Shown in pieces: positions 3,752 to 20,294 of a DNA stretch of 24,215 nt (the stretch's first letter is position 1; the number at the start of each line of letters is the position of its first letter). The DNA comes from a virus: IMG/VR virus record IMGVR_UViG_3300027833_000215, positions 1 through 24,215 of that record; one strand, given 5' to 3'. The notes beneath the pieces are model-generated. The model saw only the letters and a program-made list of their open reading frames with translations. It did no database searches and was not told the DNA's origin. The position numbers and the translations under genes are program-made.

Positions 3752-5674
3752 TTAATTATCTAAATCCTTAATTTGAGATTCATCAAGTAATTTATCATCT
3801 TCTTTTTCCTTACTTTCAAAGATTATTTGCTTTTTATCAGAAAATAAATCTTTGTTTTGGTAGTATAGTGATTTAGCAAGTGTGTTAAGAACTTTAGGTT
3901 TATTCTCCTGCTCATTAACGTTGTCATTGTCTGAGTCGAATCCTCCTTTCATACCGTGTACTCCTAGTGGATCTCTTCCTCCTAAGCCGTCATTAGTACC
4001 GTAATGTGATGCATTAGTTCTCGGTCTTCCTCCTTCTGGTCCAATTTCTCCTATGCCAGGCGTCTCGTCTTCGTAGCCAGGAGGTACTTTTCCAAATGGC
4101 ATACCTTTCTGATCTCCTTGTCTTCTTCCATAAAGTGTTGCTAAGTCGTGTGGAGTACCGTAGGACTTTCCTGATTTAGCTGGATCGTTTCCTTCGTTCT
4201 CTATCTGTGTAATTCTAAACAATCTCTTTTTATCTTCAGCAACTAGGTCTCTCATTTCCATATACTGATCTTCAGATAATTTAAAGATCTTATCATAGAT
4301 GTAGTCTGTAGAGAATAACTTAGTGTCCATCATTTGTCCTGCTAAGTCTACTTTTTCTTTAAGTAGTGCTACTTTTTCTTGTTCAAATATAATAGAAGGA
4401 TTAGTAAGATTTATTTCAAAGTTGGTAAGAGACTCACCTTTAAATCCTTGAGTATATAAATGTACTAATGCTATCTTAGTTAGTTCAGATTCTAAGATTC
4501 TTTGAAGTCTCTCTACTGTTCTTGCAAACCTAATATCTTCTGCTGCTAAAGTAGCTTTTCCGTTTAAGTCTCCTTCGTATCCAAAGTATGCTTTTGGTAT
4601 TTTTAATGCTGCAAACATTTTATCTCTAAGGTACTCTATATCGTTGGTACCATCGTATTCTAATCCTTTAGTAGTCTCTATTTTTGTTGATGTATCTCCT
4701 CCTCTTACCGGAAGGTAAAAGTCTTCCATCATGTTCATCATATTAAAACGTAAATTGTAATCTCCTGTAGCAGGATCAACGTACGGTGTCTTTTTCATTG
4801 TGTTGATAGTCTTTTGCATAAACTGTTCAACTTCATTAGGAGGAATCTGTCCTACGTTAACATAGAACGTTCTCTTTTCAGGTGCTCTCATAATACGGTG
4901 TATCAACATCGCATCTTCCATTAGAGTTAATTGCTTATATATCTTTCTTGCTGGCTCAACAAAAGATCTTCCGTACGGTAGGTAGTTAGTATCGGATATT
5001 AATCTAAAATGTGCTATTTCGTAATTATCAAATTCAACTACCTTTTTATTACTCTTAGGCAAATAGTTTGGATCTTGAGATGAAGCTAATCCATCTGGGT
5101 CTAATTGAAATGTTACTCTACCTGGATTTTCTGGGTCAAGTCCTTCTTGTCTTGACATATGGTAAACAGTATATGGAAGTACATTATATACTCCAAACTC
5201 TTCAGCGATCTCTAATTTTAGGAAGAAATCACCATATTTACACATATTCCTAGTCCATGACCATAAATTAAATTCTATATTTAATACGTCGTAGAATAGG
5301 TTGTAAAGTACTTTTTGAATATTTTCATCTGAGGACTTAATGGAAAGTACTTCTCCCATATCGTTTTTCAATGTACATTCATCTGCTAATATATCTAATG
5401 TAGATGCAATTAGTGGGTCAGTATCCATTGCTTCGTAGTCAGAATATAACTGTATACGTAGTGTCTGATAATTCAGATTTGGGTTAAATATATTCTTGTT
5501 ATTATATATATAGAGTCTTGAGAATCTATCTACTAAAGAATTAGTTTGATACTTACCTGTTGTTTGTATCTGGTTTACGTCGGCAATCTTGAGTTGGTCC
5601 CCTCCGATGTTTCTTATTACTACATCGGAAGAAAAAAGTCTACCTAGTCTTTTAAATAGTGAAGTATCTGCCAT
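3752..5674 (-). CDS. 20: Portal vertex protein, T4 gp20 family
   Basis: This 640-residue protein forms the dodecameric ring at the capsid vertex through which DNA is packed and to which the tail attaches. I recognise the T4-like portal by the N-terminal Y-S-D-Y-E-A-M-D-T-D-P-L-I-A-S-T-L-D region (about 78-95), the W-N-M-C-K-Y-G-D-F-F-L-K-type core region (about 140-153), the R-I-M-R-A-P-E-K-R-T-F-Y segment (about 260-271), and the D-K-M-F-A-A-L-K-I-P-K-A-Y-F-G-Y segment (about 350-365). It is longer than T4 gp20 (524 residues). The excess is a C-terminal, Gly/Pro/Asp-rich, probably disordered tail from about residue 500, ending in a charged helix. It follows the terminase gene by 26 bases, so packaging motor and portal are adjacent. 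The ATG at 5674 is the first in-frame Met and has no clear Shine-Dalgarno sequence. Confidence 0.92.
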   Translation of the reverse strand: MADTSLFKRLGRLFSSDVVIRNIGGDQLKIADVNQIQTTGKYQTNSLVDRFSRLYIYNNKNIFNPNLNYQTLRIQLYSDYEAMDTDPLIASTLDILADECTLKNDMGEVLSIKSSDENIQKVLYNLFYDVLNIEFNLWSWTRNMCKYGDFFLKLEIAEEFGVYNVLPYTVYHMSRQEGLDPENPGRVTFQLDPDGLASSQDPNYLPKSNKKVVEFDNYEIAHFRLISDTNYLPYGRSFVEPARKIYKQLTLMEDAMLIHRIMRAPEKRTFYVNVGQIPPNEVEQFMQKTINTMKKTPYVDPATGDYNLRFNMMNMMEDFYLPVRGGDTSTKIETTKGLEYDGTNDIEYLRDKMFAALKIPKAYFGYEGDLNGKATLAAEDIRFARTVERLQRILESELTKIALVHLYTQGFKGESLTNFEINLTNPSIIFEQEKVALLKEKVDLAGQMMDTKLFSTDYIYDKIFKLSEDQYMEMRDLVAEDKKRLFRITQIENEGNDPAKSGKSYGTPHDLATLYGRRQGDQKGMPFGKVPPGYEDETPGIGEIGPEGGRPRTNASHYGTNDGLGGRDPLGVHGMKGGFDSDNDNVNEQENKPKVLNTLAKSLYYQNKDLFSDKKQIIFESKEKEDDKLLDESQIKDLDN

Positions 5675-8242: not shown

Positions 8243-8938
8243 TTATGCTTCTGGTTCTTCTCCTGCTTCGAAATCTACTTCTGCATCTCCAAGATCTTCT
8301 CCTCCTGCATCTGCTCCTCCATCATCAAAGCCAGCTTCACCGCCTGCTTCTCCTCCGCCTTCTTCTCCGGGGAAGTCCCCTCCACCGCCTCCGCCGAAGT
8401 CTGCTTCTCCTGCTTCTCCTCCTTCGCCTTCTTCACCTGCTCCCTTAAGTGGTGCTTCTTGGTAGAGTCTAGCTAATTTATCTAAAGCTTGTTGGAATTC
8501 ACTTATGTTACCTAACATATACTTCTTACCTAAAATCTGTGCTTGAAAGTTCTTTCCTAACCATTTTAATGTAAAGTCTTGTCCGTTTACTAAATTTACT
8601 CTAAATGTTGTTGGCTTAGGAGACACCCAGTCAACTGTATCTACAAATTGTTTAAAGTCCTTTGTCATTAATTTAACTAAAGTTAATTTTAACGTAGGAA
8701 ATTTCTCAAGCATTGTATCAGTAGCGTCTTCTAACACTGTTTCTTCTGATGCTTTTTCATCACCTATCGGATCTTCTGGGGTTGGTTCTTCTGCCTCTCC
8801 TAAAGGACGTCCATCGTCATCGTAAGCTACTCCATGTTCTTCTTCATCATCTTTTTGCATTTGATCAGGATCGTAACCTTCTCTAAGAACTTGTACGTAT
8901 GCTTCTTCGATTAACTTTCTTAAGTCTTTTACTTTCAT
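8243..8938 (-). CDS. Tagged acidic protein with Gly/Glu-rich low-complexity tail
   Basis: This 231-residue protein starts MKVKDLRKLIEEAYVQVLREG. It is a predicted amphipathic helix with a putative prohead-protease site I10-E-E12|A13 and a second E|G at about residue 20-21. Residues 22-80 are very acidic. A small compact domain follows at about 85-160, with T-T-F-R-V-N-L-V-N-G-Q-D-F-T-L-K-W and K-K-Y-M-L-G-N-I-S-E-F-Q; I recall this domain from other marine phage proteins without a function. From about residue 165 to the end it is almost only Gly, Glu, Ala and Asp, and the DNA there is locally GC-rich and repetitive. A strongly acidic tail is common in scaffolds and DNA mimics. The location between the 918-residue protein and the packaging genes suggests a virion or core role. 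Function is unknown. Confidence 0.7.
   Translation of the reverse strand: MKVKDLRKLIEEAYVQVLREGYDPDQMQKDDEEEHGVAYDDDGRPLGEAEEPTPEDPIGDEKASEETVLEDATDTMLEKFPTLKLTLVKLMTKDFKQFVDTVDWVSPKPTTFRVNLVNGQDFTLKWLGKNFQAQILGKKYMLGNISEFQQALDKLARLYQEAPLKGAGEEGEGGEAGEADFGGGGGGDFPGEEGGGEAGGEAGFDDGGADAGGEDLGDAEVDFEAGEEPEA
8246..8446 (-). repeat. Low-complexity Gly/Glu/Ala-coding tract
   Basis: The minus strand encodes runs such as GEEGEGGEAGEADFGGGGGG, and the plus strand reads as CTTCTCCTC-like imperfect repeats. The tract is clearly more GC-rich than its surroundings. Such tracts vary in length by slippage. A Leu-rich open frame on the opposite strand is a by-product. Confidence 0.7.
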
Positions 8939-11735: not shown

Positions 11736-12368
11736 TTAATCTTCCCAAATAACGTTTTTAAACTTTTCTGGGGATAATCCGAAGTAATCCGTTCTCCATT
11801 GTGTTTGTTTGAAAAAATCCAAATTATACCATTCATCTTTCTTTTTCCATAATTTATCAGCTGCATCATCCCAATCTAAATTAAGAACAAATTGTTCAAT
11901 TTCCAACTTTTTCTCAAGTAATGTATCGTAATCAAATGAATCCCATTCGTAATGAAAGACTTCAAATACAGCATCTTCAGAAACATAATCAATAGATATA
12001 TCTATACCCCATTTAGGTTTCATTTTAACTAGCTTATGTAACATTGGATTAGTCTGTGCTATAGCTAATAGTTGCTCCTTAGCGTGATCGTTATACCCCT
12101 TTCTTTCAAATAAGTCTGAATGATTGATATGTGCTCCGGCTCTCTTACCACAAACTAGCCAAGGAGATCTTAAACAATCTTCATGTCTTCTTTCTACAGG
12201 ACTGTATCCATTAAATGGTAAAAAAGTCTGTTCCGCTTTAGTTAAGTGGTATCCGTTCTGATCGAATAAGTCTACGCAGTTTCTGTCTTTAAGTATATTA
12301 ACGTCCTCTGTAGCATTAACAAAATAAGCGTCTCTATTAAGTGTACTTTCCGTTAATATCATTGGCAT
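11736..12368 (-). CDS. Unknown 210-residue phage protein
   Basis: I do not recognise this protein. It is rich in Trp, Asp, Lys and Phe, with an H-E-D-C-L-R-S-P-W-L-V-C segment (about 62-73), a D-I-S-I-D-Y-V strand (about 123-129), and a D-D-A-A-D-K-L-W-K-K-K-D-E-W helix (about 165-178). No signal peptide or membrane segment is visible. The N-terminus MPMILTESTLN has a site-like L5-T-E7|S8, but lacks the basic tag style of its neighbours. An alternative start two codons later (ATG at 12362-12360) would form the ATGA overlap with the upstream stop that is frequent in this window, and may be the true start. Two Cys (C66, C73) could form a disulphide or metal site; this is speculative. Confidence 0.6.
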   Translation of the reverse strand: MPMILTESTLNRDAYFVNATEDVNILKDRNCVDLFDQNGYHLTKAEQTFLPFNGYSPVERRHEDCLRSPWLVCGKRAGAHINHSDLFERKGYNDHAKEQLLAIAQTNPMLHKLVKMKPKWGIDISIDYVSEDAVFEVFHYEWDSFDYDTLLEKKLEIEQFVLNLDWDDAADKLWKKKDEWYNLDFFKQTQWRTDYFGLSPEKFKNVIWED

Positions 12369-12997
12369 TGGTAATTAAGGTAGCGTTGGAGAGCTTTAGC
12401 GTATGTTGTACCCTTATCTTTTAGTTTTCCTTTTGCTGTCTTTACTTTACTGCAAGATAGCTTACCTAATCTTTTTTTTAAAATACCGGGATTCATTGGT
12501 TCATGATCTCCTTCATTAGTTGAAAATACTGTTGGATCTGCTACTAGTTCCCCTACTTTAAATTGTAGTTCTGATTCTATTCCTAGAACTCCTAATGGTC
12601 CACCAATTTTCTCTACCTTATCTTTTTCCCCTTTTAGTCTAGAGTTATAGTACTCTACATAATCTAAAGCTTCTTTTTTCGTTACTCTTTTAGTATCTTC
12701 GTATTCACCTTCTTCATTAGTATATATGTAGAATGTTCCAACAGTATCGTTAAATATGCTACGTAGTTGATCGCTATCTAAATTTCTTTTCCCGTCTATA
12801 ACACTTAGTAGTGTAATATTGTCCGAAGTGGTAATAGTTTCGTTTTTAGATTTCTCTAATTTATCACCTGCTTTCTTTGCTGCTTTAAATGCTTTTGAAT
12901 TGCCGTGTGATGCTTTTTCACCTCTTTTTTTCTTAGCATTTATATTAGCCCATAAGCTTTCTTTTATAATCTCTCTTAGTAGGTTTGATAGTTTCAT
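12359..12997 (-). CDS. Tagged basic protein of unknown function
   Basis: This 212-residue protein begins MKLSNLLREIIKESLW, one of the clearest copies of the shared N-terminal tag, with a site I11-K-E13|S14. Immediately after comes a very basic W-A-N-I-N-A-K-K-K-R-G-E-K stretch (16-28), then S-K-A-F-K-A-A-K-K-A-G (34-44), a type of sequence I recall in several marine phage proteins. A middle domain (about 58-165) contains T-F-Y-I-Y-T-N-E-E-G-E-Y. The C-terminal segment (about 172-212) has K-K-R-L-G-K-L-S-C and K-A-L-Q-R-Y-L-N-Y-Q-C, with two Cys, and I recall it as a recurring phage C-terminal module. Basic and tagged, it could be a head-packaged, DNA-associated protein like the T4 internal proteins. 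That is inference; no enzymatic motif is visible. Confidence 0.65.
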   Translation of the reverse strand: MKLSNLLREIIKESLWANINAKKKRGEKASHGNSKAFKAAKKAGDKLEKSKNETITTSDNITLLSVIDGKRNLDSDQLRSIFNDTVGTFYIYTNEEGEYEDTKRVTKKEALDYVEYYNSRLKGEKDKVEKIGGPLGVLGIESELQFKVGELVADPTVFSTNEGDHEPMNPGILKKRLGKLSCSKVKTAKGKLKDKGTTYAKALQRYLNYQCQ

Positions 12998-13977: not shown

Positions 13978-14506
13978 ATCCTAGCTCTTTTAACTTATTT
14001 ATAACTGATGCTGAATCTCCGTCTTTACACCTGATTGCTATTCCACCACTAGCAGTCCATTCTGCAATATTAGATGGTTTATCGTCTATAAGAATACTAT
14101 TTTCGTTTGCATACCTTTGTTTATCTTTTGAGTAAGCAAAAATTACTTTTGGCTGTGGGTTTAAGTTTCCTTTTGCCCACATATTTTTGCCTAGACGTGA
14201 ATTATTATCTCTTGATGGAGATGTTAACAAGTCAGGGGAATATGGACTAATAAAGTTCCAAAGTGCTTTTCCTTGCGGCATAAAGTCCATATCGGACCAA
14301 AATACTATTCCTACCTCGACATCGATTAAGTTCCAAAAAGCTTTTATACCATGCTTGTTTTCATATTCTTTCGGGGACATTCCTGAGTAGTGTTCAAAAC
14401 GTGATTCAAAGTCTGTTAGTACTCCGTCCATATCGCAATAAATCTTGTACTGAGGGATTTCTTTTACCGGGTGTGCTTCTAATAAGTCTACTATGCTATT
14501 CTTCAT
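13970..14506 (-). CDS. HAD-superfamily phosphatase / 5'-nucleotidase-like, tagged
   Basis: This 178-residue protein has the HAD phosphohydrolase motifs: motif I Y-C-D25-M-D27-G-V-L (nucleophile D25, acid/base D27), motif II T95-S in L-L-T-S-P, a likely lysine in the 107-120 region, and motif IV I-L-I-D141-D142-K-P-S-N. These are the hallmarks of small 5'(3')-deoxyribonucleotidase-like or phosphate-monoester hydrolases. The substrate cannot be told from sequence; nucleotides or nucleic-acid ends are likely in a phage. Before the domain is a 20-residue leader, MKNSIVDLLEAH, with a prohead-protease-like site L8-L-E10|A11 at exactly the position used in T4 internal proteins. That suggests the enzyme may be packaged and injected. 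It overlaps the upstream metalloprotease gene by 11 bases and the downstream zinc-finger gene by eight. Confidence 0.82.
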   Translation of the reverse strand: MKNSIVDLLEAHPVKEIPQYKIYCDMDGVLTDFESRFEHYSGMSPKEYENKHGIKAFWNLIDVEVGIVFWSDMDFMPQGKALWNFISPYSPDLLTSPSRDNNSRLGKNMWAKGNLNPQPKVIFAYSKDKQRYANENSILIDDKPSNIAEWTASGGIAIRCKDGDSASVINKLKELGYE

Positions 14507-14888
14507 ATCTTTTCCAATTTATTTCTTCTGCAGTTGCTGCTAATTCGTATGGGTGGCTACAGTATGTATGTCCCATATTATAGTACCTAGTCATCCAACT
14601 AGGAGATTGTAAGTAGTGTTGGTATTCGTGAATCAGAGTTTCTATTATCTGTTTCCTGCTTGTCATTTGAGGATAGTATATAATAATGGAATTTATAATT
14701 CTATCATACTCAGCATCTGGACATTCTTCTCCTAATGTTCCATCATCGTCTTCTCCTGCTAATCTTGAATATATACTTTTTTCGTAATCAACATAAGGGC
14801 TACAGTCCAAAAACTTACTATACCCGTAATCTAATTCTATCTTAGGAAAGACTTCTTCTACTATTTTTTTTATTTTATCTAATTTCAT
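14496..14888 (-). CDS. Small HExxH zinc metalloprotease-like protein
   Basis: This 130-residue protein has a clear metallopeptidase motif, T84-L-I-H87-E88-Y-Q-H91, in which the two His bind zinc and Glu is the base. A downstream H112-P-Y-E115-L-A-A-T-A-E-E supplies a likely third Glu ligand, as in gluzincins. The size is minimal for the fold. The N-terminus MKLDKIKKIVEEV resembles the shared tag of other proteins here, but V10-E-E12|V13 is a poor cleavage site. Possible targets are host proteins early in infection or peptide cross-links during lysis; there is no evidence to choose. No signal peptide is seen, so it should act in the cytoplasm or be carried in the virion. It overlaps the HAD gene and is preceded by a 45-base AT-rich gap. 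Confidence 0.75.
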   Translation of the reverse strand: MKLDKIKKIVEEVFPKIELDYGYSKFLDCSPYVDYEKSIYSRLAGEDDDGTLGEECPDAEYDRIINSIIIYYPQMTSRKQIIETLIHEYQHYLQSPSWMTRYYNMGHTYCSHPYELAATAEEINWKRYEE

Positions 14889-14933: not shown

Positions 14934-16244
14934 CTAATTCTTAATATTATCTTCCCAGTTTCTGAAAGTTATATTGCCTTCTAAGTATGCTTCTTTTTCT
15001 AATTCTAGTAAATTACTGTCTTCGTTTGTATTGGTAGTTCCTACTCCCCCTAACCTGCCTTCTAAGTTCTGTTTATGGTGAATCATTTCATGTGCAAATG
15101 ATCTCATTACATCTTTCGGATGTCTTCCCTGTACATAAAGTACAACTTCTTTTTTAGTTGGGTCATAGTAAGCTGTTTTACCAAAGAAATTTGAAGATTC
15201 AGCTATGTCTTTCTTAATCTTTACTTCCGGTAAAGGTGTTATGTTCATTCCTTCGTCTATCATGTATTCGAGTATTGAACCCATGAAAGGAGTATAATCA
15301 AACCCAATCCTCTGGTCTTCATCTTTATTTTTTATAATAATATGATCATGATTATAATTTATGTCGTAGTATTGATCTCCAATAACGTTCCTTAACCTAT
15401 TATATAAAGTAACAAGTTTTACTCTATCTGCTGATTTCATTACTCCTTGAGGAGCTATAGCAGTGCCAGAAGAACCTTCTTCTAAAGCTCTATTTGCTGG
15501 TTCGTTATTGTGTCCACATTTATGACACATATATAAATCATCGCCTCCGCTTGAGATATCCCAGCTCCAATCGCAATTTTCACATTCGATTTTATCTTCT
15601 ACGTTAAACATTCCATTTAGCTTTTTTTCAAGATCTTCTTGCATTATTTCAGCTATTATACTCGCTTTTAACATATTCATTATTTTTAAAATCTCATCTC
15701 TAGATAAGGCTTCTGGGAAGAAATCTAATACTTCGTCTAAATTTCCTGATAATATTGCATTTCTAAAATCTGTTGCTCTAACATTAGAGTTTGTACCTGC
15801 TGGTATTACCAATCCTTGTACGTTTTCTCTATTTTTAAATGTAGTAACTCTTTTTAAATCTGGTAAATCCTCTTCCGCCCTAATTCCTGTTATAGCATAG
15901 AACTTATCACTTTCATTAGCTTTAGCATAGTCTTTAGCTGCAAACATCGGGTTTTTTTCACCGTCCATTACTACAAGTCCTGGAAGGTATTTAGCATATA
16001 TGTTCCATACGGCTATCGACTCTTCTTTAGTAATTCCATTTCTAGAACCTCCTCCAATGAATACTAGCACCTTCTCTATCTTATCTAGTTGGTCTCCAGT
16101 ACCTTGTAGCACACTCGTACCTGCTTCTGCATAAGAATCTATATCGTATACCTTACCTCCATGATTTCCGTTTAGTAATCTTTTTACTACTTCAAAATGT
16201 CCTCTGTGGGGAGGTTTAAATGCTCCTGGATATAATGCTATCAT
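14934..16244 (-). CDS. Nucleotidyltransferase - zinc ribbon - HExxH metalloprotease fusion
   Basis: Three parts are visible in 436 residues. Residues 1-185 are a cytidylyltransferase/adenylyltransferase-like domain: A3-L-Y-P-G-A-F-K-P-P-H13-R-G-H16 (HxGH motif), V60-L-V-F-I-G-G-G, and S153-N-V-R-A-T-D-F-R as the ISxxR-like end. Residues 215-250 form a zinc ribbon with C221, C224, C240 and C243 (pattern CENCDWSW...MCHKCGHN). Residues 345-436 hold a metallopeptidase motif, S382-F-A-H384/E/M/I/H-type HEMIHH (about 384-389), followed by E-L-E-K-E-A-Y (414-420) as a likely third ligand. A putative prohead-protease site, L254-E-E256|G257, lies just after the ribbon and would free the protease. NMN adenylyltransferase, sugar or lipid nucleotide activation are all possible for domain one. 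It overlaps the kinase gene upstream by four bases. Confidence 0.8.
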   Translation of the reverse strand: MIALYPGAFKPPHRGHFEVVKRLLNGNHGGKVYDIDSYAEAGTSVLQGTGDQLDKIEKVLVFIGGGSRNGITKEESIAVWNIYAKYLPGLVVMDGEKNPMFAAKDYAKANESDKFYAITGIRAEEDLPDLKRVTTFKNRENVQGLVIPAGTNSNVRATDFRNAILSGNLDEVLDFFPEALSRDEILKIMNMLKASIIAEIMQEDLEKKLNGMFNVEDKIECENCDWSWDISSGGDDLYMCHKCGHNNEPANRALEEGSSGTAIAPQGVMKSADRVKLVTLYNRLRNVIGDQYYDINYNHDHIIIKNKDEDQRIGFDYTPFMGSILEYMIDEGMNITPLPEVKIKKDIAESSNFFGKTAYYDPTKKEVVLYVQGRHPKDVMRSFAHEMIHHKQNLEGRLGGVGTTNTNEDSNLLELEKEAYLEGNITFRNWEDNIKN

Positions 16245-17182
16245 TTCAAAAATTTCTGTACTTTTACTTCAATTTCTCTTTCTGATGAGTGTTTCAATTG
16301 TTGTTGAAACTCTGAGTTTGTTAACATATCTGCTATATTAACTAATACTTCTTTCTCTCTTTCTTTATTCCTGATATATCCTCTTTCGATTGTATCTACC
16401 TTCTTCTTCATTTTATCATCACCAGGACCGGTACCGTTCTTTTCGTAAAATTTAAACCAATACTTCTTTAATTCTTTATGCATAGATTCGTTTTCTCTAT
16501 CAAATTCAATATTTCTATTTTCCTCTTCAAAAGCTGTTTTTGCATCTTCGCTTGGCAGGTCATAAGCTTTTCTAAAAGTTGAACCGTATGCTTCTTTTCC
16601 TCCTGTCTTTTCGATATAAGATTCAAGGTAATCTGCTACACCGGAAGCACCTCTTTCTGCTGCTTTGTTAAACTCTTCTATTTCTTTTCCAAATTTATCT
16701 TGTCTAAGGTTAACAAATAGTGAAAAGTTATCACCTAGTAGGTCTGTATATCTACCTATTAGTTGGTACACATTCCTCCAAGTAGAGAATACTGCGGTTT
16801 TTGGGACTCTTCTTTCTCTAGAAAAGTTGTTAATAAAAGCTACCATAGGGTGTGTGTACACCATTACCATATACACATCATACCCTTTGTCAATAAGGTT
16901 CTGTATCTTAGCTGGGTTAGATGCTGTAGTGTCCCATACAAGGGATTTACCTGTCTCCGCCGCCGCTTGGACGTCTTTGTCTACTTGTCCGCTGGCTGCG
17001 GATAGGTTGTTGTGGTACGGGTGTTGTGGGTCTTCTACGTATTTGTCTGGGTTGAACATTGGTAGGCTTATTAATCCTAATTTGTCTATTAGGTACGATT
17101 TGCCTGCTCCTGCTCCCCCTGCCATTACTACTGCTTTCGGTCGTTGTGACGCTTCGAAGATTAGGTTTGCTAGTTTTATCAT
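16241..17182 (-). CDS. Zeta-toxin-like P-loop kinase, tagged
   Basis: This 313-residue protein has a Walker A loop G22-G-A-G-A-G-K-S29, then F43-N-P-D46-K, then V83-W-D-T-T-A-S-N, and an Arg-rich S121-R-E-R-R-V-P lid segment. The layout fits the zeta toxin / AAA_33 kinase group, whose members phosphorylate UDP-N-acetylglucosamine or nucleic-acid and nucleoside substrates; the substrate here is not known. The rest (190-313) is charged and helical. The start MIKLANLIFEAS carries a site I8-F-E10|A11, at the same residue as in T4 internal proteins. The first 236 bases overlap the end of the lipoprotein gene in another frame, and a promoter-like motif lies 27 bases before the ATG inside that gene. 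The end overlaps the nucleotidyltransferase fusion by four bases. No antitoxin partner is recognised. Confidence 0.8.
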   Translation of the reverse strand: MIKLANLIFEASQRPKAVVMAGGAGAGKSYLIDKLGLISLPMFNPDKYVEDPQHPYHNNLSAASGQVDKDVQAAAETGKSLVWDTTASNPAKIQNLIDKGYDVYMVMVYTHPMVAFINNFSRERRVPKTAVFSTWRNVYQLIGRYTDLLGDNFSLFVNLRQDKFGKEIEEFNKAAERGASGVADYLESYIEKTGGKEAYGSTFRKAYDLPSEDAKTAFEEENRNIEFDRENESMHKELKKYWFKFYEKNGTGPGDDKMKKKVDTIERGYIRNKEREKEVLVNIADMLTNSEFQQQLKHSSEREIEVKVQKFLK

Positions 17183-17756
17183 TTGTTACTGTATTGTTTA
17201 TTACTCTACGTTTATAAATAGTTGCTGTTCTACCTCTTACACTGCTGTTATTAACTCTAATACCTCTATACCGGTTATTCCAGCCGTAATTATTTCTTCC
17301 CTGTCTCCATCCCCAATTATTTTGGGAGTTATTCCAACCATATCCCCATCCATGGTTATTCCAACCATAGTGTATGTTGTATCCCCATCTATCATATCCG
17401 AATACTGACCAGCGATGAGGTTGACCCCATGAATTCCATCCAGTATATCCCCATACCCAGTCATTCCACATCTGTGTTCTACTATAGTAGGGATTGTAGA
17501 AGCTATACCTATTACCTAGTATTCTATTATTCCAATCAAATGATCTAGGTTGACTTATTGCATACTGAGCAAAATCGTATCTAAAGGTAAAGTCTGTTCT
17601 AAGTAATCGTTGAAGTTCAAACTCATTATTAATTACGGTAATTTCAGCATCTGAGCCTTCAATGGAGTATATTGGATCATGATTTAAAGTGCTTACTTGA
17701 AAGGAAGCACATCCTGTTAGCAATAAGACTAGTAGTAAAAATAATGATCTGTTCAT
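16947..17756 (-). CDS. Phage-encoded lipoprotein, Trp/Asn/Gly-rich, with overprinted basic tail
   Basis: This 269-residue protein has a textbook lipoprotein signal: MNRS, a Leu-rich hydrophobic core (5-13) and a lipobox L13-T-G-C16. After lipidation at Cys16 it should sit in the cell envelope. Residues 20-75 look folded; 86-163 are rich in Trp, Asn, Gly and Tyr (repeated G-W-N-N and G-Y-G-W units), a style common in Bacteroidetes lipoproteins. From about residue 192 to the end the protein is Arg/Gln/Pro/Ser-rich and probably disordered. That tail is encoded by the 236 bases that also encode the start of the zeta-like kinase, and it contains no codon beginning with T before its TAA stop. Phage lipoproteins often block superinfection, but nothing here proves that. 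The gene starts three bases after the nuclease gene. Confidence 0.8.
   Translation of the reverse strand: MNRSLFLLLVLLLTGCASFQVSTLNHDPIYSIEGSDAEITVINNEFELQRLLRTDFTFRYDFAQYAISQPRSFDWNNRILGNRYSFYNPYYSRTQMWNDWVWGYTGWNSWGQPHRWSVFGYDRWGYNIHYGWNNHGWGYGWNNSQNNWGWRQGRNNYGWNNRYRGIRVNNSSVRGRTATIYKRRVINNTVTNDKTSKPNLRSVTTTESSSNGRGSRSRQIVPNRQIRINKPTNVQPRQIRRRPTTPVPQQPIRSQRTSRQRRPSGGGDR
17210..17220 (-). promoter_or_regulatory. Candidate promoter motif TATTTATAAAC inside the lipoprotein gene
   Basis: The minus strand reads TATTTATAAAC, identical to the element before portal, 27 bases before the ATG of the zeta-like kinase and inside the lipoprotein coding sequence (around residues 179-183). It could let the kinase gene be expressed apart from the lipoprotein. 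Confidence 0.35.
17274..17471 (-). repeat. Degenerate GWNN-type repeat tract in the lipoprotein
   Basis: The tract encodes irregular repeats of Gly-Trp-Asn-Asn and Gly-Tyr-Gly-Trp (protein residues about 96-161). On the plus strand it appears as recurring TTATTCCA and CATCC-like words. It is an amino-acid repeat of low complexity rather than an exact DNA repeat. Confidence 0.55.
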
Positions 17757-19509: not shown

Positions 19510-19941
19510 CTATACGTCGATCATTTTAAGTTTTGAGGATTTTGGGTGAATCATAATGTTATCTCCCACAAAGTCTAGTTCGTCTGATGGAATTCCAAGT
19601 CTTGTTGCTTCTTTTTCTGTTGCAAGGACAAACTCTTCAGGAACTTCTCCTTTAAATTTACCTAGAACTTCCATTTCTATAACTGCTAATTTTTTATCTA
19701 TAACTTCTACATCGTATATGTAGACGAAGTTGTTTGTCTTCTTACCTTTTATTATTAAAGCATGTTCTATTTCAACTTCATCTGTTGTTACCTTTACTGC
19801 TTTACCATTTAAAAGAAAAACTGAACCATAGTCTCCGGAACCTATATAAGTTGCTCCTTGATCCTTTAGCTTTTCTACTTGCTTTTCAAAACCTGGATCG
19901 TATTCTAAGGGTCCTTCTAATATAATTTTTGAAAGTTTCAT
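19510..19941 (-). CDS. Minimal protein kinase-like protein with capsid-targeting-like tag
   Basis: This is a 143-residue protein with a compressed kinase fold: glycine loop Y32-I-G-S-G-D-Y-G-S-V-F42, ATP-binding lysine K50 in A-V-K-V, a helix-C glutamate (E56, E58 or E59), hinge-like I88-E-M-E-V-L, and a catalytic-loop match L122-D123-F-V-G-D-N128-I-M-I with the D-to-N spacing of eukaryotic-type kinases. The DFG-equivalent Asp is D142 in M-I-D-V, and the protein stops one residue later, so the activation segment and C-lobe are missing. It starts MKLSKIILEG, with a site I7-L-E9|G10, almost identical to the neighbour's MKLSNIILNEQ. Possible roles are phosphorylation of host proteins at DNA entry (compare T7 gp0.7) or a pseudokinase. 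The gene ends 47 bases before the primase gene. Confidence 0.72.
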   Translation of the reverse strand: MKLSKIILEGPLEYDPGFEKQVEKLKDQGATYIGSGDYGSVFLLNGKAVKVTTDEVEIEHALIIKGKKTNNFVYIYDVEVIDKKLAVIEMEVLGKFKGEVPEEFVLATEKEATRLGIPSDELDFVGDNIMIHPKSSKLKMIDV

Positions 19942-19943
19942 TT

Positions 19944-20294
19944 TTATACTTTAGGTACGTCTAAATTAAAGTTAAATTTAATTTTCGGAAAATAATCTCT
20001 CTCTCCCGGTTCGTTTTCATAGTAATTAGTAGATTGCTCTTCATCTACTTCATATCCTTTGCTACTTACTGATGCGATTGCTTTACTAAATTCGTTTTCT
20101 GGTAATTCGTCTTTATGTAAAAACGTTATTGAGCCATATCCTTTGTTTTTAAGCGGATCACTGTCGGGTCTAGGTTGATGATATGCACCCATTGATACAT
20201 ACGGTCTGTATTCTTGATTTAATTCTCTCTCTAGTGTCTCTATTTGAGATTTAAATTCATTCTGTTCGTTTAGAATTATATTTGATAATTTCAT
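19944..20294 (-). CDS. Small tagged protein of unknown function
   Basis: This 116-residue protein begins MKLSNIILNEQNEFK, sharing its first eight residues almost exactly with the kinase-like protein two bases downstream; the putative cleavage would be L8-N-E10|Q11. After the tag come a charged helix (12-29) and a small domain with G-Y-G-S-I-T-F-L-H-K-D-E-L-P (53-66), then an F-S-K-A-I-A-S-V-S-S-K-G-Y-E-V (69-83) helix-strand unit, and a final strand K-I-K-F-N-F-N-L-D-V. I do not recognise a family. The pairing with the kinase-like gene and the shared tag suggest a common fate, possibly both packaged in the head. The start overlaps the cupin-like gene by four bases (ATGA). Confidence 0.65.
   Translation of the reverse strand: MKLSNIILNEQNEFKSQIETLERELNQEYRPYVSMGAYHQPRPDSDPLKNKGYGSITFLHKDELPENEFSKAIASVSSKGYEVDEEQSTNYYENEPGERDYFPKIKFNFNLDVPKV

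Follow-up and report, generated by a model that had tools for sequence, protein, structure and literature searches.

Our comparison of related sequences indicates that a lipoprotein gene and a P-loop kinase gene of a phage form, very probably, a genuine long same-strand overlap, in which a basic, hydrophilic and probably disordered lipoprotein tail is written in the other frame of the kinase, with loss of a stop codon as its probable origin. The window, i.e., the whole stretch of DNA analyzed, is a virus record of 24,215 bases. Both genes lie on its minus strand: the lipoprotein (269 amino acids; delimited by its ORF, 42 related loci, their alignment, and structure prediction) at 16947-17756, and the zeta/PNK-like kinase (313 amino acids; assigned by Pfam, PHROG, a structure model, and Foldseek) at 16241-17182. 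As the first-pass annotation had described, they share 236 bases on the same strand (16947-17182, minus strand) in different frames, the first codon position of the lipoprotein being the third position of the kinase. We show that the second frame is held open, and that synonymous kinase codons are chosen against those that would place stops, cysteine, or most aromatic and large hydrophobic residues in the lipoprotein.

The terminase encoded in the window shares 76% identity with its counterpart in Flavobacterium phage immuto, and the window carries portal and terminase genes of T4 type; its source is therefore a T4-like phage, with a Bacteroidota bacterium as the probable host. Among 50,697 phage records, no named-phage relative matched the lipoprotein or the kinase, and a single kinase-profile scan of genome contigs gave 0 confirmed relatives. 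For comparison, viral contigs were scanned using the kinase and the lipoprotein of the window, the kinase of a related locus (L057), and a kinase profile; the profile scan reported 335 relatives, of which 80 were kept. Removal of near-duplicates left 69 kinases on the tree, which was built exclusively from residues past the overlap.

In the window, the third bases of kinase codons 1-77 comprise 42 A, 23 C, 12 G, and 0 T. The only T-ending kinase codon in the overlap is codon 78 (GGT), whose T opens the lipoprotein stop codon TAA (16947-16949, minus strand), exactly as the first-pass annotation had read it. Past the overlap T-ending codons are frequent again (69/235, 29%, close to the third reported from a shorter count). 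At the kinase gene's own T rate, such a T-free run has a probability of ~2e-12; in the 24 other window genes tested, T-free runs reach 21 codons at most. The rise in GC content noted earlier is likewise real: C occupies 29% of kinase third positions in the overlap versus 13% outside, and two-fold pyrimidine codons end in C in 18/18 cases in the overlap versus 23/59 in the rest of the kinase.

The overlap recurs in relatives, uncultured phages of a widespread group. Among the 69 non-redundant kinases, 57 overlap the lipoprotein by 206-254 bases, always in the same frame, and 12 do not. The first 78 kinase codons include on average 7.5 T-ending codons (range 1-15) with the overlap versus 25.2 (range 13-33) without it, whereas the downstream T fraction is 37% in both groups. 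The overlap label switches seven times on the kinase tree; of the seven independent contrasts, six agree with T depletion in the overlap, one shows no difference, and none opposes it (sign test, p = 0.03). T depletion thus tracks the presence of the overlap in homologous kinases, which supports selection on both frames. The complete loss of T-ending codons reported by the first-pass annotation is true of the window, but relatives sharing the overlap retain 1-15 of them among the first 78; across relatives the loss is quantitative, and the window is an extreme case.

Both frames are open and conserved across diverged relatives, and this bears on two alternatives. The first is that the overlap is a misannotation, with a wrong lipoprotein end, a wrong kinase start, or a frameshift error. 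The precedent is strong, since a survey of prokaryotic co-directional overlaps longer than 60 bases judged all 715 cases examined to be misannotations (PMC2478687). Here, however, the same overlap is found in 57 non-redundant kinases on many contigs, kinase residues 1-10 are conserved, the P-loop codons, well past the start, also fall within the overlap, and codon choice bears the mark of selection on both frames; we regard this explanation as refuted by the comparative data and highly improbable. The second is that an antisense or other-frame gene drives the bias, such as the plus-strand ORF at 16665-17408, which is indeed open in the window. The antisense frames, though, hold stops in most relatives, and of the alternative frames, that of the lipoprotein alone lacks stops in every representative (27/27). 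Such stops refute both the antisense and the +1 frames as the cause, leaving this possibility practically negligible. One relative (L036, 3001-4563) carries the lipoprotein and the kinase in a single frame; this is probably an indel error, as its close relative L046 does not, and we set it aside.

To separate stop avoidance from selection on residues, synonymous kinase codons were redrawn according to the codon usage that each gene shows outside the overlap (4000 draws). Redrawn kinases carry 6-11 stops in the lipoprotein frame, and no more than 3 of the 4000 draws leave it open. Even when the draws are conditioned on an open frame, 15-22 T are expected across genes versus 0-15 observed, and 10-17 F/W/Y/C/L/M residues versus 0-8 observed. 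For the window, if the kinase protein is kept unchanged and the second frame has to stay open, 19 T are expected and 0 observed, and 14 F/W/Y/C/L/M residues are expected and 1 observed. Stop avoidance alone is insufficient to explain the loss of T.

We then pooled the 27 representatives, restricted the count to codons in which a final T leaves the kinase residue unchanged, and classified these codons by the lipoprotein residue that T would create. The T fraction in the overlap versus the rest of the kinase is 0/477 versus 63% where T makes a stop, 0/248 versus 48% for Cys, 6% versus 44% for Phe, 6% versus 47% for Leu, 9% (15/161) versus 35% for Trp, 15% versus 65% for Tyr, and 31% versus 52% for Ser. 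Consistently, cysteine is absent from all 4394 overlapped lipoprotein codons of the 57 genomes. T use depends on the residue created, and selection therefore acts at the amino-acid level of the lipoprotein and maintains a basic, hydrophilic tail. The earlier suggestion that the lipoprotein frame avoids all TNN codons, stops included, holds in the window; across the representatives it holds for stops and Cys, avoidance of the other residues is graded, and T that makes Ser or Trp is partly tolerated. These figures also bear on a cause at the nucleotide level, whereby mRNA structure, access to the start site, or local base composition would disfavor T, the open frame being a by-product. The gain of third-position C and the GC rise fit such a cause, as do the first 32 kinase codons of L057, which are T-free without an overlap. 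Against it, the T that makes Trp (TGG) is tolerated while the T that makes Cys (TGC/TGT) is not, which excludes a dinucleotide effect such as TpG avoidance, Ser is tolerated, and homologous non-overlapped kinases show no depletion. We consider avoidance of T or TpG as such largely refuted, and a nucleotide-level cause very unlikely.

The first-pass annotation had also proposed a synonymous-constraint scan. It gave a modest excess in the overlap, and we replaced it with the residue-class test; the generic scan is weak because the signal lies in changed codon usage, not in site identity. Since site-by-site conservation of the tail, over and above what the kinase imposes, is modest (synonymous identity ratio 1.17 in the overlap versus 1.06 in the rest), the constraint looks mainly compositional, and the bulk properties of the tail appear more constrained than its exact sequence. 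We also noted raised synonymous conservation (ratio 1.37) at the 3' end of the kinase, codons 300-313 (approximately 16241-16285), which adjoins the start of a downstream gene (14934-16244, minus strand) with a weak N-terminal match to nucleotidyltransferases. A homologue of this gene comes after the kinase in relatives as well, e.g., L057 and L064.

The relatives without the overlap are equally informative. Ten relatives lacking the long overlap carry 7-15 stops in the old lipoprotein frame, and T use is normal in L109, L114, L145-L152, and L155-L165 (L153 excepted), none of which has a long overlap. In four of these (L114, L145, L147, and L150), no lipoprotein was found at the kinase-adjacent place; others have a lipoprotein whose tail is self-encoded. 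The first-pass annotation had counted two observations against its own reading: stops in the tail frame beside an intact kinase, and normal use of T-ending codons in the same kinase region. Relatives of the former kind do exist, but their T-ending codons are at normal levels, and this supports the idea of dual-frame selection, as do the 57 overlapped kinases and the residue-specific tolerance of T. L057, nested on the tree beside the overlap-bearing L020, has its lipoprotein stop 8 bases upstream of the kinase, with seven old-frame stops within the first 78 kinase codons and 13 T in codons 33-78. Its T-free codons 1-32 (3942-4037) may be a relic of the overlap, mark a recombination boundary, or result from a separate constraint; some of the signal thus persists once the overlap is gone, or it comes from elsewhere.

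The lipoprotein consists of a signal peptide with the lipobox LTGC, a helical segment, a segment rich in Trp, Asn, Tyr, and Gly, and the basic tail. The signal peptide and lipobox, up to Cys16, lie at 17709-17756 (minus strand; MNRSLFLLLVLLLTGC). Cys16 is invariant in 32 sequences, and by the lipobox criterion the product is predicted to be a lipoprotein of bacterial type. It has no match in Pfam, PHROGs, NCBIfam, or PADLOC, weak PADLOC matches to Cas8 having been set aside. The structure model predicts a helix at approximately residues 45-102 and has low pLDDT from residue 117 on, suggesting that the tail is probably disordered; most of the model is of low confidence. The hydrophilic tail has a median length of 130 residues, 78 of them encoded inside the kinase, with ~20% R+K and ~4% D+E, and could serve as a long, positively charged anchor or linker on the outer side of the inner membrane. 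In L045, L052, L056, and L060, the lipoprotein homologue sits elsewhere, 5' of an unrelated gene starting MDNF or MSDF; in the records of L045, L056, and L060, the sole kinase is a distant one at another place. Judging from this gene order, the lipoprotein has shifted position relative to the kinase.

Tails that do not depend on the kinase allow us to ask what is being maintained. The self-encoded tails of L045, L052, L056, L057, L109, L158, and L016 are similarly long and rich in R/K/N/S/T/P, and most self-encoded tails match the overlapped ones in length and charge; those of L155 and L156 are short, and a long tail is thus not universal. A C-terminal RRKN common to overlapped and self-encoded tails was dropped as a candidate motif, being frequent, far from universal, and partly forced by kinase Glu and Lys codons. 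A further reading, which we would place slightly short of even, is that the tail is selected for composition, not sequence: cationic, Cys-free, and disordered, it would be supplied either by the kinase frame or by low-complexity DNA, with several switches between the two. If this is true, the tail is a replicated natural experiment on how a useful disordered segment arises in an overlapped frame and leaves it again. A serious rival, concerning the persistence of the overlap and not dual coding itself, is a constructive-neutral ratchet, in which a functionless tail appeared by accidental stop loss, harmful residues (Cys, aromatics, hydrophobics) were purged, and reversal became hard. The mostly compositional constraint would fit, L155 and L156 manage without a long tail, and simulations form long phase-1 overlaps without selection for them (PMC3887535). 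However, the kinase-free tails keep their length and composition, and losses of the overlap occur, so that return is not blocked; we regard the ratchet as possible but rather doubtful.

The junctions in relatives point to a simple origin for the overlap. The first-pass annotation had raised the question of whether homologous lipoproteins end before the kinase start, and several do end near it: the overlap is 4 bases in L155, 1 base in L158-L165, and 14-17 bases in L015/L016. In L156 and L157, the lipoprotein ends in AAT GAT TAA, and the stop takes its T from the third position of kinase Ile2 (ATG ATT AAA; junction ATGATTAA). Sequence comparison thus provides relatives whose upstream gene stops on the kinase start or just past it, as expected from 3' extension by stop loss. 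Overlap-bearing kinases with Ile2 use ATA or ATC instead, giving NDK or NDQ in the lipoprotein. In the window, the corresponding lipoprotein codon is AAA (the K of NDK; 17175-17177, minus strand), formed by the third base of kinase Ile2 and the following AA, where L156 and L157 have the TAA stop. The change from ATT to ATA or ATC is silent in the kinase, and the stop could therefore be removed without altering the kinase.

We thus propose that loss of a stop, and then the purging of T, probably gave rise to the overlap. In the ancestor, the lipoprotein stop would have lain on the kinase start (ATGATTAA), and a kinase-silent change of Ile2 from ATT to ATA or ATC would have abolished it. Further T-ending codons would then have been purged stepwise, each loss lengthening the tail or discarding a harmful residue; the next stops would have come within a few codons, so that the present length implies, we infer, a stepwise loss of T. 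Several lineages probably abandoned the overlap, and either acquired a new self-encoded tail or gave up the lipoprotein. On a tree rooted with L015, an outgroup of our choice, the short lipoprotein forms are basal, but long branches meet there and make the rooting uncertain; the non-overlapped state is likely ancestral rather than proven to be so. The first-pass view of the tail as the newer, overprinted part is favored, because the P-loop, unlike the overlap, is conserved everywhere, and because in deep relatives the lipoprotein stops where the kinase begins.

The kinase itself was called zeta-like from the sequence, and this was borne out by a match to Pfam Zeta_toxin (PF06414; E 3.4e-10; 40.1 bits versus a family cut-off of 22.3). 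It also matches the PHROG 2071 ATPase and, weakly, a PezT profile (E 0.0014); its structure model has a pLDDT of 86, with Foldseek matches to bacterial polynucleotide kinase and zeta/PezT. Taken together, the Zeta_toxin, PezT, and Foldseek matches place the protein, by profile and predicted structure, in the P-loop kinase group. It has the P-loop kinase fold in common with zeta toxin/PezT and bacterial polynucleotide kinase, and differs from them in an additional C-terminal helical half. The P-loop, GGAGAGKS (residues 22-29; 17096-17119, minus strand), lies within the overlap, and its G22, G25, G27, and K28 are invariant in 31 sequences.

The kinase starts with the decapeptide MIKLANLIFE (17153-17182, minus strand; low model confidence), which resembles the T4 capsid-targeting sequence (CTS). 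In internal proteins of T4, the key residues of this sequence are 4, 7, 8, and 10, with an (L/I)-X-E end (PMC9026906); the kinase N-terminus is likewise ten residues long, with the same key positions and end. Across 53 kinases in the MI/MM/MV register, E10 is present in 53/53, L4 in 52/53, L or I at position 7 in 53/53, and I8 in 50/53. Of 26 window proteins, 7 start with a hydrophobic M[KI] motif that ends in xE, versus 0.35 expected from shuffled N-termini. The seven genes, all on the minus strand, are 2582-2848, 8243-8938, 12359-12997, 14496-14888, 16241-17182 (the kinase), 19510-19941, and 19944-20294. By analogy with T4, this suggests a set of packaged head proteins, and the kinase may be a packaged, injected protein. 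As an internal protein of T4 type, it would be cleaved by the prohead protease and present in the virion.

Long same-strand prokaryotic overlaps are usually discounted as annotation errors; the lipoprotein/kinase case recurs, and a change of a single base offers a plausible origin for it. Pipelines that trim overlaps during annotation would likely shorten the lipoprotein or shift the kinase start. Because the overlap was lost in some lineages, one gene allows constrained codon use to be set beside unconstrained use, making it a testable question whether overprinting selects an exact sequence or overall properties, e.g., charge, disorder, and the absence of cysteine. Among known systems, the spanins of phage lambda offer a parallel: the Rz1 lipoprotein is nested in Rz in a different frame, both being lysis proteins. 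There, as here, a phage lipoprotein shares DNA with a gene in another frame; in our case only the tail is overlapped, and the partner is a P-loop kinase. Same-strand terminal overlaps are known to arise by loss of the upstream stop, 3' elongation being the commoner route in a model (PMC3887535, PMC2268670). In these, too, the upstream gene is lengthened into the downstream gene in another frame; the lipoprotein/kinase overlap differs in exceeding 200 bases, in spanning a diverse phage group, in its measurable amino-acid-level selection, and in its natural losses. Overprinted viral overlaps are enriched in Arg, Ser, Pro, C, and CG, depleted in T, and encode disorder-prone products (PMC6195259). 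The lipoprotein tail follows the same compositional trend, but it extends an existing lipoprotein instead of forming a new gene, excludes Cys almost absolutely, and has comparable self-encoded counterparts. Stop-loss overlaps and Arg/Ser/Pro-rich, disorder-prone overprinted products are thus known kinds; what stands out here is the length of the overlap, its breadth, the amino-acid-level signal, and its repeated losses.
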